From Arthrobacter sp. B3I9 (GTDB lineage Bacteria; Actinomycetota; Actinomycetes; Actinomycetales; Micrococcaceae): a stretch of 64,000 nucleotides of DNA. The DNA lies in assembly GCF_030816935.1 (NCBI RefSeq), contig NZ_JAUSYO010000001.1, positions 2,356,001 to 2,420,000 of the forward strand. The letters are read 5' to 3'. Below are positions 5,823 through 58,010 of this stretch, piece by piece. The position numbers and the translations under genes are program-made. Every line of letters begins with the position of its first letter. The stretch's first letter is position 1. Under the pieces are notes generated by a model. It ran no database searches, had not been told where the DNA came from, and saw only the letters and a list, made by a program, of their open reading frames with translations.

Positions 5823-6562
5823 AGATTCTCCTGGACCGGGTGGCGGTGCGGGTCGGGGCTGACGGCCGCGCGGCACCCAAGACCCTGCTCGAAGGGTTGT
5901 CACTGGAGCTGGTGGAGCGGCGGATCGGCATCATCGGCGCCAACGGTTCCGGGAAGTCCACCCTCCTGCGGCTCCTGAACGGTCTGGTGGCACCCAGCAG
6001 CGGCAGGGTGCTCGTGGGTGGTTCGGATACTGTCCGTGCGGTGCGGGAAGTCCGTCGCCGGGTCGGCTTCGTCTTCACCGATCCGCTGTCCCAGCTGGTG
6101 ATGCCCACCGGCCGCGAGGACGTGGATCTTTCCCTCCGGCGCTCGGTCCGGAATGCTGCGGAGCGGCGGCGGCAGGCTGAGGCCACCCTGGACCGCTTCG
6201 GGTTGCTGCCGCTGGCGGACCAGAGCATTTATGAGCTTTCCGGCGGGGAGCGCCAGCTGATGGCCCTCGCCGCCGTCCTCGCGGTGGACCCGGAGCTGCT
6301 GGTCCTGGACGAGCCCTCCACGCTGCTGGACCTGCGCAACCGGGAACTGCTCCGCCGGACCCTGGCAGGCCTCAGCCAGCAGGTCATTCTGTCCACGCAC
6401 GATCTCGAGCTCGCCCAGGACATGGACCGCGTCCTCGTAGTCGACGCCGGCCGGGTCGTGTTCGACGGCGATCCCGCGCCCGCCGTCGAGCATTACCGCG
6501 CGCTGAGCGCGTCAGGGTCTAAGCCGCCAGTCGGGCACGCGCTGCAAAGGGAGCAGCGGTGA
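5819..6562 (+). CDS. bioM: Biotin ECF importer ATPase BioM
   Basis: A 247-aa ATP-binding subunit energising biotin uptake with BioN and BioY. Walker A is GANGSGKSTLLRLL (about residue 41), the signature ELSGGERQLMAL, Walker B LLVLDEPSTLLDL, and the H-loop region STHDLELAQDMDRV. The GTG start overlaps the bioY stop (GTGA), giving translational coupling, and the stop overlaps the bioN start in the same way. A longer upstream frame is an overlap artefact inside bioY. Placement directly after bioY supports biotin rather than cobalt or thiamine specificity. Confidence 0.9.
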   Translation: MKILLDRVAVRVGADGRAAPKTLLEGLSLELVERRIGIIGANGSGKSTLLRLLNGLVAPSSGRVLVGGSDTVRAVREVRRRVGFVFTDPLSQLVMPTGREDVDLSLRRSVRNAAERRRQAEATLDRFGLLPLADQSIYELSGGERQLMALAAVLAVDPELLVLDEPSTLLDLRNRELLRRTLAGLSQQVILSTHDLELAQDMDRVLVVDAGRVVFDGDPAPAVEHYRALSASGSKPPVGHALQREQR

Positions 6563-7191
6563 GCGGTTCGGGGTTCCTGTTCGCAAACTATGTGCCAGGC
6601 GGGTCCGTGGTGCACCGGGCGCCGCTGTGGCTGAAGTTCCTGCTGGTTCTGGGCTGCGGCATGGCGTCCTTCCTGATCGCGGACTGGACCGTGGCAGCCG
6701 GGATGCTGGCGCTGATGTGCGGACTGTTTCTGCTCAGTGGGGCGGGGCCGGCACGCCTGCTGCGCGCCGTCCGGCCGGTGCTGCCGGTGCTCGCGGTGCT
6801 CGGCCTCTTCCAGTGGTGGCAGCTGGGCGGCCCCACCGCAGCCCGCATCGTGCTGAACGTGCTGGTCTGCATCGTGGCGGCATCCATCCTGACGGCGACG
6901 ACGCCCGTCCAGGCGCTGCTGGACGGGGTAGCGTCCTTGGCCATGCCGTTCCGGGGCTTGGGTGCGGATCCCGAACGCTTCACCCTGACAATCGCCGTCA
7001 TGCTGCGGAGTATCCCGTTCGTCGCAGGTGCCTATTCCAACGTCCGGGATTCCGCGCGCGCCCGCGGCCTGGAACGAAACCCCCGGGCCCTGGTGCTCCC
7101 GGTCTTCATCACCACCGTGGCCTTCGCCCGGCAGACCGGCGAAGCCCTGGCGGCGCGAGGTTTGGGCGAGGCCGAGGACCGGGAAGGCTGA
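6559..7191 (+). CDS. bioN: Biotin ECF importer transmembrane subunit BioN
   Basis: A 210-aa CbiQ/EcfT-type membrane coupling protein. Four or five hydrophobic segments lie between residues 20 and 140 (for example LKFLLVLGCGMASFLIADW and IVLNVLVCIVAASIL). Near residue 165 comes the cytoplasmic coupling motif SARARGLERNP, an Ala-Arg-Gly signature that contacts the ATPase. The GTG start overlaps the bioM stop by 4 bp. It ends the bioYMN operon; a non-coding palindrome array begins 31 bp downstream. Confidence 0.9.
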   Translation: MSGSGFLFANYVPGGSVVHRAPLWLKFLLVLGCGMASFLIADWTVAAGMLALMCGLFLLSGAGPARLLRAVRPVLPVLAVLGLFQWWQLGGPTAARIVLNVLVCIVAASILTATTPVQALLDGVASLAMPFRGLGADPERFTLTIAVMLRSIPFVAGAYSNVRDSARARGLERNPRALVLPVFITTVAFARQTGEALAARGLGEAEDREG

Positions 7192-7221
7192 GACCGGTCT
7201 GCGGTGTTCTTCCACGGGAAG

Positions 7222-7644
7222 GGACATGCCCTCCCCTGCCCGCGGACAATGAGCATAGTGCCGCTATGCCCACTGCTCGGGCCCAGGAATGAGCATGTTC
7301 CCCGGGGCGAAGCGCCAGGAATGAGCATGTCCCGTGGGTCGTCGGCGCAGGACATACTCTCCCCCTTGGTGCCCCACGGGACATGCCCTCCCTTGCCCGC
7401 GGACATTGGACATAGTGGCATCGTGTCCGTGGCTCAGGCCTAAGAATGAGCATGTCCTCCCGGCCAAGGGCCCAAGAATGAGCATGCCCGTTGCTCAGAC
7501 TGAAGAATGAGCATGTCCCCTGGGCGCGGACTGAAAAATGAGCAAGTCCCGTGGGCGCGAACTCCGCAAATGGGCATGTCCCGCGCTCCCCGCACCGGAA
7601 AAACGGGCATGTCCCTTCGCCGCGCCCCACGAATGAGCATGTCC
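7222..7644. repeat. Array 1: phased RRRCATGYYY palindromes with two split elements
   Basis: This fills the 464-bp gap between convergent bioN and the thiolase gene. The 10-bp palindromic cores (GAGCATGTCC, GGACATGCCC, GGGCATGTCC and relatives) start at 7222, 7291, 7323, 7350 (degenerate), 7379, 7448, 7480, 7509, 7540 (CAAG variant), 7572, 7605 and 7635. Two 21-bp split elements start at 7251 and 7408: the left half is GAGCATA or GGACATA and the right half is TATGCCC or CGTGTCC. Start-to-start distances are 29, 40, 32, 27, 29, 29, 40, 32, 29, 31, 32, 33 and 30 bp. The order 29-40-32 occurs twice, and the segments at 7222-7271 and 7379-7428 are near copies, so part of the array was duplicated. 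Several cores are preceded by A/G-rich AGAAT or GGAAT. Nothing here looks coding. Confidence 0.9.
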
Positions 7645-7655
7645 CTAAGGGAAGG

Positions 7656-8873
7656 TCAGGGGAACCTGCGGTATTCCAGCAGCGCGGCCGTGCCCATGCC
7701 CCCGGCGCTGCTGATCAGGGCCAGGGCCAGCTGGCCTTGCACCCCGGCGCGGCGGGCCTGGGCCAGCACCCGGGTGACGAGGACCGCTCCCGAGGCGCCG
7801 TAGGCGTGGCCGAGGGCCAGCGCTCCGCCGTCAACGTTGGCCCGTGCCGGGTCGATGCCGAGCCGTTCGAGGCAGGCGATCGTCTGGGACGCGAACGCCT
7901 CGTTGAACTCGACCAGGCCGAGGTCCGCTCCGGTCATGCCGTGCGCGGCGAGCAGGCGTTCCCCCGCGGCGGCCGCGCCGATGCCGAGCAGCCGGGGGTC
8001 CACGCCGGCTGTGTCCGTCCCCAGCACCAGCAGGCCGTCGCGGGGCCCCAGCTCGCGGGCACGCCCCATCGAAGTGACCACGACGGCGGAGGCAGCGTCC
8101 GCGTCGAAGCAGGAGTTCCCGGCCGTGACGGAACCCCCGGAAACGAACGCCGGCGGGAACCGTGCCAGAACGTGCGCGGTCAGTCCGCGGCGGGGTCCGT
8201 CGTCGGCCGTCACGGTGTGGGAACCGCCCGGCCCGGAGGACATGTCCAGCGGAACGATTTCCGCGTCGAACGTGCCGGAGGCGGCTGCGGCGAGGGCCCG
8301 TTGGTGGCTGCGCAACGCCAATTCATCCTGCCGCTCCCTGCCCACTCGGAAATGTTCGGCCACGTTTTCGGCAGCGGCACCCATGTCCGGATCACCGAAG
8401 GCGGCCGGCACGAACTGTGCGCGCGAAAAGAATTCCGGCTCACCTGCACTGTTCCGGTGCGCGCGGAGCGGCGCGGTGCTGACGCTTTCCACCCCGCCGG
8501 CCAGGTACACCGCGCCGCCCCCGGCAGCCACCAGCCGCGAGGCGAGTGCGATCGCGTCCAGCCCGGAGCCGCACTGCCGGTCCACAGTCAGGCCGGGAAC
8601 GCCGACCGGCAGGCCCGCCTCGAGCGCGGCGAGGCGGGCCACGTTCCCGCCGCCGCCCACGGCATTGCCAATCACGACGTCGGCCACCGCATCCGCGGGC
8701 ACGCCCGTCTCGACCAGGAGGCTGCGCAGGACCGGGGCCAGCAGTTCATGGGCGCGCAGCGAGGCCAGAGCGCCGTTGGCGCGGCAGACCGGGGTCCGGC
8801 GGGCCGCGATGATGACGGGCTGCCGGTCCTCCGGAAGGTCCTCCGCAAGGACCGCCGTGCGGGGCTCAGCCAA
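7656..8873 (-). CDS. Thiolase family acyltransferase with atypical active site
   Basis: A 405-aa thiolase-fold enzyme. The nucleophile Cys is in DRQCGSGLDAI (about residue 99). The NEAF motif is present as FNEAFASQ, and the His is in ALGHAYGASGA. The C-terminal catalytic cysteine, normally in C-x-G-G-G-x-G, is replaced: the stretch reads ISSAGGMGTA. Canonical thiolysis needs both cysteines, so the reaction may differ, for example a condensation. The start is TTG at 8873, overlapping the 3' end of the upstream ligase by 8 bp, so the two are co-translated and probably act in one acyl-CoA pathway. The product is unknown. Its 3' end lies 11 bp from palindrome array 1. Confidence 0.85.
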   Translation of the reverse strand: MAEPRTAVLAEDLPEDRQPVIIAARRTPVCRANGALASLRAHELLAPVLRSLLVETGVPADAVADVVIGNAVGGGGNVARLAALEAGLPVGVPGLTVDRQCGSGLDAIALASRLVAAGGGAVYLAGGVESVSTAPLRAHRNSAGEPEFFSRAQFVPAAFGDPDMGAAAENVAEHFRVGRERQDELALRSHQRALAAAASGTFDAEIVPLDMSSGPGGSHTVTADDGPRRGLTAHVLARFPPAFVSGGSVTAGNSCFDADAASAVVVTSMGRARELGPRDGLLVLGTDTAGVDPRLLGIGAAAAGERLLAAHGMTGADLGLVEFNEAFASQTIACLERLGIDPARANVDGGALALGHAYGASGAVLVTRVLAQARRAGVQGQLALALISSAGGMGTAALLEYRRFP

Positions 8874-57082: not shown

Positions 57083-57312
57083 GGACATGCTCAACGTCGT
57101 ATGCCCCGTTCGGACATGACCCACGTTCGGCACAGCCATTGGGCATGTCCTCCCGGACGCACCACAAGAGCCGGACATGTCCCACGTTCCGCACAGCCAT
57201 TGGGCATGTCCTCCCGGACGCACCACAAGAGCCGGACATGTCCCACGTTCCACGCGCGCACCGGACATAATGCCAAGATGCCCATTCGTTGAACCCAGGA
57301 CTGGACAAGTCC
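57083..57312. repeat. Array 2: phased palindromes with a 61-bp tandem unit
   Basis: It lies in the 407-bp gap between the GNAT and VOC genes. Ten-bp cores start at 57083, 57112, 57141, 57173, 57202, 57234 and 57303 (CAAG variant), with a 21-bp split element at 57263 (GGACATA left half, ATGCCC right half). Start-to-start spacings are 29, 29, 32, 29, 32, 29 and 40 bp. The segment 57112-57172 repeats almost exactly at 57173-57233, and a third copy begins at 57234. Bases 56976-57082 before it and 57313-57382 after it show no recognisable feature. Confidence 0.9.
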
Positions 57313-57899: not shown

Positions 57900-58010
57900 G
57901 AGCATGCTCCCCCTGCGACGCCTCAGGACTGGACATGCTCCCCCTCGGGCCTAGCCACTGGGCATAGACCCGCATATGCCCATCCGCCCGGCCCAGGGCT
58001 GGGCATGTCC
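57900..58010. repeat. Array 3: phased palindromes upstream of the VOC gene
   Basis: Ten-bp cores lie at 57900 (GAGCATGCTC), 57931 (GGACATGCTC) and 58001 (GGGCATGTCC), with a 22-bp split element at 57960-57981 (GGGCATA left half, TATGCCC right half). Spacings are 31, 29 and 41 bp, again leaving 19 nt on each side of the split element. It fills the 314-bp gap between the VOC start and the rpsA terminator. Confidence 0.88.

Follow-up and report, generated by a model that had tools for sequence, protein, structure and literature searches.

Dispersed arrays of a 79-bp palindromic module in Arthrobacter and a candidate cognate protein with AbiEi-like and VSR-like parts

Two described systems come closest to the element reported here. 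The first comprises the repetitive extragenic palindromes (REPs), with their bacterial interspersed mosaic elements (BIMEs), and the REP-associated tyrosine transposases (RAYTs), which a passage of PMC2817692 describes as always flanked by two inverted REPs. The second comprises the AbiEi antitoxins and their operators; according to an excerpt of PMC7319586, AbiEi binds a pair of 23-bp inverted repeats with 3 bp between them, and the pairs of Rv2827c lie 13 bp apart. The present element was recognized at positions 7222..7644 of a 64,000-nucleotide stretch of Arthrobacter sp. B3I9 (contig NZ_JAUSYO010000001.1, positions 2,356,001 to 2,420,000), hereafter the window, as an array (array 1) of two types of palindromic site: site A, the 10-bp RRRCATGYYY, and site B, RRRCAT-N9-ATGYYY, a second type whose half-sites stand one helical turn further apart. 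A dyad-symmetrical module of 79 bp, A-19-B-19-A, forms the repeat unit, and one gene flanked by arrays at both ends encodes a protein with AbiEi-like and VSR-like parts. We consider it probable, if well short of certain, that the arrays are dispersed binding sites of this cognate protein and that its nuclease-like domain may help to spread or maintain the modules, in a manner resembling REP/RAYT but from unrelated parts. If so, a cognate enzyme bracketed by its own dispersed extragenic palindromes would have evolved a second time, from unrelated parts, and the AbiEi/VSR-like fusion proteins would gain a concrete role and predicted target sites. The module is in any case a rigid genome-wide marker of defined geometry.

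The likeness to REP/BIME and RAYT lies in organization: the palindromes are many, dispersed, clustered and extragenic, a cognate-type gene is bracketed by its own repeats, and repeat and protein change together. The parts differ, in that the arrays consist of operator-like double-stranded sites rather than hairpins and the protein is AbiEi-like plus VSR-like, with no Y1 transposase. A search for the Y1 tyrosine transposase (PF01797) found none in the genome that contains the window (G000, a 4.12-Mb single contig), and gave matches in 2 of 206 Arthrobacter genomes, one of them over the cut-off. With the RAYT absent, membership of REP/RAYT was rejected; the system is REP/RAYT-like by organization, not by parts, and belongs to the dispersed-repeat-plus-enzyme kind. 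The AbiEi operators of S. agalactiae abiE and Rv2827c share with our sites an AbiEi-like fold, inverted repeats and a difference in spacing of about one turn (11 bp between A and B half-sites here). Unlike those operators, each at one promoter, tens of modules lie genome-wide, with arrays both upstream and downstream of the gene, and unlike AbiEi antitoxins the Arthrobacter protein has a nuclease-like domain fused to it. The EDxHD/VSR-type homing endonucleases (I-Bth0305I) differ as well, since here the domain is joined to an AbiEi-like part and its gene stands by itself between typA and fdxA, with many extragenic arrays as the candidate targets. CRISPR arrays likewise have short near-palindromic repeats and variable linkers of near-constant length, but our repeats are degenerate and only 10 bp long, fall into two site types with dyad symmetry round B and are joined by linkers with semi-conserved positions; the comparison did not extend to cas genes. 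REP counts for Arthrobacter livingstonensis are tabulated in PMC12306157, in a passage that gives no sequences, and among open-access PubMed Central titles and abstract openings we found none describing the element or its pairing of gene and repeat.

Geometry and conservation of the module

An initial annotation of the window had counted twelve cores, two of them degenerate, and two split forms in non-coding DNA between convergent genes. That count stands: array 1 holds ten exact A cores, two with one mismatch each (7350-7359 and 7540-7549) and two B sites, the former split forms (7251-7271 and 7408-7428), in the interval between the ends of a + strand gene (7191) and a - strand gene (7656). 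Its components are as follows.

7222..7644, no strand: array 1, the finding itself, with 10 exact A cores, 2 near-exact A cores and 2 B sites
7222..7300, no strand: module 1, A-19-B-19-A (A 7222-7231, B 7251-7271, A 7291-7300)
7251..7271, no strand: first B site, split palindrome GAGCATA-N7-TATGCCC
7379..7457, no strand: module 2, A-19-B-19-A (A 7379-7388, B 7408-7428 with one mismatch, A 7448-7457)
7408..7428, no strand: second B site, one mismatch
7480..7644, no strand: further A cores in a run (7480, 7509, 7540 near-exact, 7572, 7605, 7635)

Exact RRRCATGYYY occurs 21 times in the whole window, whereas 100 shuffles yielded 3.33 on average and never more than 8, and G000 holds 69 core pairs with a gap of 15-25 against 0 for the reversed control pattern; a stricter B form, CATA-N5-10-TATG, was located 13 times, with a length of 21 bp in 12 cases, and its control once. 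These sites were mapped to 18 places, namely 17 arrays and an isolated pair at 1540470; the map covers 65/69 core pairs and 22/28 modules, so a few arrays have been missed. The isolated pair (1540470-1540507) is a lone 38-bp A-18-A, a near-perfect hairpin without B that lies 24 bp 3' of a gene, and similar single hairpins are present in other genomes of the genus.

In G000, the gap from one exact A core to the next is 19 (17 cases), 20 (10), 21 (7), 22 (26) or 23 bp (4). Measured from start to start, the commonest distances are 29 and 32 bp, or 2.8 and 3.05 turns, so that successive cores do not lie exactly on one face of the helix; the proposed three-turn spacing holds roughly, and strict phasing is rejected. 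The exact spacing lies around B, and the A-B-A geometry is fixed in other arrays: among exact G000 sites the gap is 19 bp in 14/15 A-B and 12/14 B-A neighbours. The A sites are moreover mirrored about B. At loci of other strains the GGA half of the left A neighbour lies outside in 88 cases, inside in 10 and is undecided in 68, and that of the right neighbour outside in 105, inside in 3 and undecided in 64, although these spacing and orientation counts are biased because the loci were selected by the module pattern; G000, with outside:inside ratios of 9:2 (left) and 6:3 (right), and the ecfT locus are free of that bias. A weak linker consensus beside each core, derived from the 45 of 164 modules retained after thinning, extends the half-site to approximately CNANSRNT-GGRCAT.

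Conservation was assessed at the position of array 1, which lies 3' of an ecfT-like gene, by opening 30 genomes with the EcfT protein alone. A module is present there in 10 genomes, including G000, and none in the other 20; B is degenerate in G024 and G031. Mean pairwise identity was 0.94 and 0.76 for the A sites and 0.77 for the B halves, against 0.61 and 0.55 for the linkers, 0.42 for the middle of B, and 0.38 and 0.34 just outside the module, with the G024 row, one base short in B and therefore shifted, lowering the identity of its second half. Core identity exceeded linker identity in 45/45 pairs. A second set of seven loci, taken from modules of G054 and compared with four relatives, agrees (differences of 0.02-0.06 in cores and of 0.14-0.19 in linkers; the totals omit three rows with over 25 gaps, and locus L244 was found in 1 of 4 genomes). 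The expectation that cores are conserved above linkers across species is thus borne out.

The module (at most two mismatches) occurs in 57 of the 206 Arthrobacter genomes, with 20-65 copies in 47 of them, and is missing from the other 149; the control pattern gave zero. In a sample of the family, 19/395 genomes and 2/32 genera carry it, among them G233, from another genus, with 11 modules and no fdxA match at E 1e-30 in that incomplete assembly. A contig scan found the element in at least 120 stretches, and each of the 80 titles listed among them names Arthrobacter. A plasmid or phage origin of array 1 was rejected, with no blastn match and the exact module in 0 viral contigs. Around 118 arrays, a set that counts orthologous places repeatedly and uses genes chosen by a simple composition rule, the adjoining gene pairs are convergent (47), tandem (30 and 28) or divergent (13). 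The array-facing gene end is a 3' end in 152/236 cases, at a median distance of 36.5 bp (n=152), and 20 of the 84 5' distances are negative, the array overlapping the chosen frame.

Whether the module acts as a double-stranded site or as a hairpin bears directly on its interpretation. Complementarity within linkers (sets retained: 53/71, 46/88 and 180/432) was at or below the shuffled level, 0.335 against 0.372 (n=180), and linkers facing each other across B (columns 10-22, 72 modules) showed no base-pair covariation (z -1.0). Covariation was limited to facing half-sites, namely the outer A arms (z 4.0) and the B flanks (z 5.4) in within-genome shuffles, and G-U pairs were depleted where it occurs. 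This sample comprised 84 + strand modules from eight genomes, less 12 (tandem near-copies and one weak row), and some of its modules are near-perfect palindromes (33/39 pairs). Rfam models gave 0 matches in the window at gathering score. An RNA or cruciform hairpin for the whole module was ruled out for the linkers, which show no complementarity above shuffles; their lack of covariation points to operator-like DNA rather than a hairpin. At the B flanks and outer A arms the covariation is genuine and accounted for only in part, and as judged from the sequences, matched protein half-sites or a DNA-level palindrome correction would fit it better than an RNA stem. Core conservation, fixed A-B-A spacing and linkers without covariation together argue, at the level of sequence, for the chromosomal binding-site system of a DNA-binding protein that the initial annotation had proposed.

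A candidate partner gene and its relatives

Among the genes adjoining arrays, one cluster is flanked by them on each end, with 12 flank entries from 8 loci. It encodes the candidate partner, a 269-amino-acid protein, outside the window at G000:1442619-1443425, between typA and fdxA (names assigned by eye), where its gene stands alone between two arrays; neighbouring open reading frames (ORFs) were judged by eye, without a family search for an AbiEii-type toxin. Its AlphaFold model (mean predicted local distance difference test score 89.5) matches the AbiEi antitoxin 6y8q over residues 1-164 and ngo0050, I-Bth0305I and VSR over residues ~167-267 in structure searches. The first segment is predicted to be an AbiEi-antitoxin-like DNA-binding part with the AbiEi fold (winged helix-turn-helix plus C-terminal domain), and the second, as modelled, is a VSR/homing-endonuclease-like domain of PD-(D/E)XK-type fold with candidate catalytic residues; E172, D199, E209, D211 and H216 are invariant in 42 homologues. 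No one entry covered both domains well, an absence that excludes nothing. The Pfam model AbiEi_4 scores 24.2 bits on the G000 protein against a cut-off of 25 and has a precomputed match in most of the homologues listed, which are named in databases as AbiEi family antitoxin domain-containing, very-short-patch-repair endonuclease or hypothetical. Close homologues carry the names Arthrobacter or Pseudarthrobacter.

Gene and modules occur together. Orthologues, for which the lower limits were 67% identity and 350 bits (the next match scores 262), are found in 50/206 genomes, 49 of which are module-positive, and 49 of the 57 module-positive genomes have one. The 30 best orthologues, picked by protein score only, include 28 that have A cores on each side at a distance of no more than 700 bp; of ten more orthologues, 10/10 have them on at least one side and 9/10 on both. 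At the fdxA locus of 12 module-free genomes, 11 have neither the gene nor an A core within 1.5 kb; G179 is module-free yet has the partner gene. Module counts are low in genomes without an intact orthologue, which suggests that the gene sustains the modules: 12 in G068 (internally deleted copy), 9 in G105 (no gene, A cores remaining at the locus), 4 in G119 (locus not recovered), 17 in G045 (a fragment of residues 1-85), 10 in G043, 1 in G018 and 16 each in the incomplete genomes G172 and G173, against a median of 37.5 with the gene.

Sister genes, ~50% identical to the partner gene, offer a further comparison. A cores are lacking within 700 bp of ten such homologues (45-54% identity) from module-free genomes, and the end of typA, seen upstream by eye in 6/7 flanks inspected, places these homologues at the same locus. 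A different palindrome, TGYGCASGGRCWGTCCSTGCRCA, flanks the sister gene in 5/10 (G071, G011, G029, G137 and G204; inverted-repeat finder, loci L231-L240). A search of both strands with up to three mismatches recovered it from each of the 27 sister-gene genomes tested (2-11 copies on the better strand; 0-3 in 13 others), and pairs of it bracket the gene, for example in G137, G138, G142, G072, G006 and G029. Separately, a long terminator-like stem, AGAATGCCACCGGT...ACCGGTGGCATTCT, follows typA ~180-260 bp upstream of the sister gene in several genomes (L231-L240). Among more distant paralogues (31-36% identity), 7/20 share an upstream and downstream motif above all 100 shuffles, against 6/150 control ORFs, in a test that is insensitive, since known orthologues scored 5/10 and sisters 4/10. 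The motifs (L286-L305) include AACTGGCCCAGT in G137, G011 and G017, GCAGAAATGC in G076, G115 and G002, and a GTGTCCGTGTCGAAGTGCCCC-like motif in G132, G044 and partly G121. It is a tentative idea, to which we attach rather less than even weight, that AbiEi/VSR-like fusions form an array-making enzyme family, independent of RAYT, in which each lineage or paralogue reads and is bracketed by its own palindrome, the G000 clade having seeded and still maintaining tens of tripartite modules per genome.

Competing explanations

Given the observed site geometry and conservation, the co-occurrence of gene and modules and the bracketing of the gene, the AbiEi/VSR-like protein probably recognises the palindromes; its binding, cleavage and mobility we infer. 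One monomer would read one half-site, ~CNANSRNT-GGRCAT, and two half-sites would meet either adjacently, as A, or one helical turn further apart, as B, which makes six half-sites per module. Of the homodimer proposed initially, what survives is a protein meeting itself on paired half-sites; a symmetric homodimer per 10-bp core no longer serves as the whole story. The nuclease-like domain might in turn spread, maintain or trim modules by cutting at cores, with repair from another copy, an idea in line with the junctions at cores in 2 of 3 indels inspected, and arrays may survive best at gene 3' ends. Two points temper the suggestion that the gene sustains the modules. Relaxed constraint on modules would be expected after loss of the gene, and the substitution rates of G043 and G045 show none; and the relatedness of the genomes reduces the co-occurrence evidence to 3 independent contrasts, in a test that scored G018, with its one module, as module-negative.

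The best surviving rival, which we regard as unlikely, is that the protein acts solely as a sequence-specific regulator or repressor, that the modules are operators, roadblocks or terminators at gene 3' ends, that the nuclease-like domain has another role, and that modules arise by ordinary mutation and duplication. AbiEi proteins autoregulate via inverted repeats, as an excerpt of PMC7319586 has it; the conservation of cores at orthologous places and the closeness of arrays to 3' ends would suit such a role, and modules diverge so widely within a genome that no recent spread is seen. Divergent-gene positions are however rare and the adjoining genes unrelated, unlike a regulon, and the catalytic-type residues are invariant.

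Somewhat less credible still is that a different protein, such as a nucleoid-associated factor, an insulator or a terminator protein, binds the modules and that the array-flanked nuclease-like gene is merely co-inherited in one clade. The positive genomes do fall mostly in one clade, so that many genes would show a similar profile, the bracketing between typA and fdxA may be one inherited event, and G043 and G045 have kept modules although neither has an intact gene. Against this, sister genes and some paralogues are flanked by other palindromes, protein and motif changing together, and absence of or damage to the gene accompanies low module counts. The nucleoid or segregation factor suggested by the initial annotation finds no backing in the chromosomal distribution, as the 17 mapped arrays do not depart from uniformity (Kolmogorov-Smirnov p 0.58, on a map of 22/28 modules with ori unlocated), and the associated gene is AbiEi/nuclease-like and array-bracketed. 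An insulator between convergent genes, the other role suggested there, is possible; arrays do sit preferentially at the 3' ends of genes.

That the repeats are a minisatellite, or of hairpin/REP type, with no cognate binding protein is very improbable: some arrays, those at 28.4 kb and 1246 kb of G000, contain tandemly duplicated units, and the near-perfect palindromes and covarying arms recall a hairpin, but the linkers are not complementary, G-U pairs are depleted at the covarying positions, cores are conserved above linkers, and Rfam gave no match.

Other features of the window

The genes beside array 1 and the two further arrays of the window are as follows.

6559..7191, + strand: EcfT-like gene (name by eye), its 3' end 30 bp before array 1; matched in 30/30 genomes searched
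7656..8873, - strand: thiolase-like gene (name by eye), convergent, ending 11 bp after array 1
57083..57312, no strand: array 2 (A 57083, 57112 near-exact, 57141, 57173, 57202 and 57234; B 57263-57283; A 57303 near-exact)
57900..58010, no strand: array 3 (A 57900 and 57931; B 57960-57981, 22 bp; A 58001)

Open frames crossing array 1 (7109-7630, - strand, and 7507-7803, + strand) have short-repeat translations and are probably not genes. Exact A cores stand alone outside the arrays at 8238, 44842 and 60173, the first and last within coding-looking open frames and hence likely due to chance. Arrays 2 and 3 flank a small glyoxalase-like gene, and array 3 is positioned 3' of an rpsA-like gene (both names by eye).
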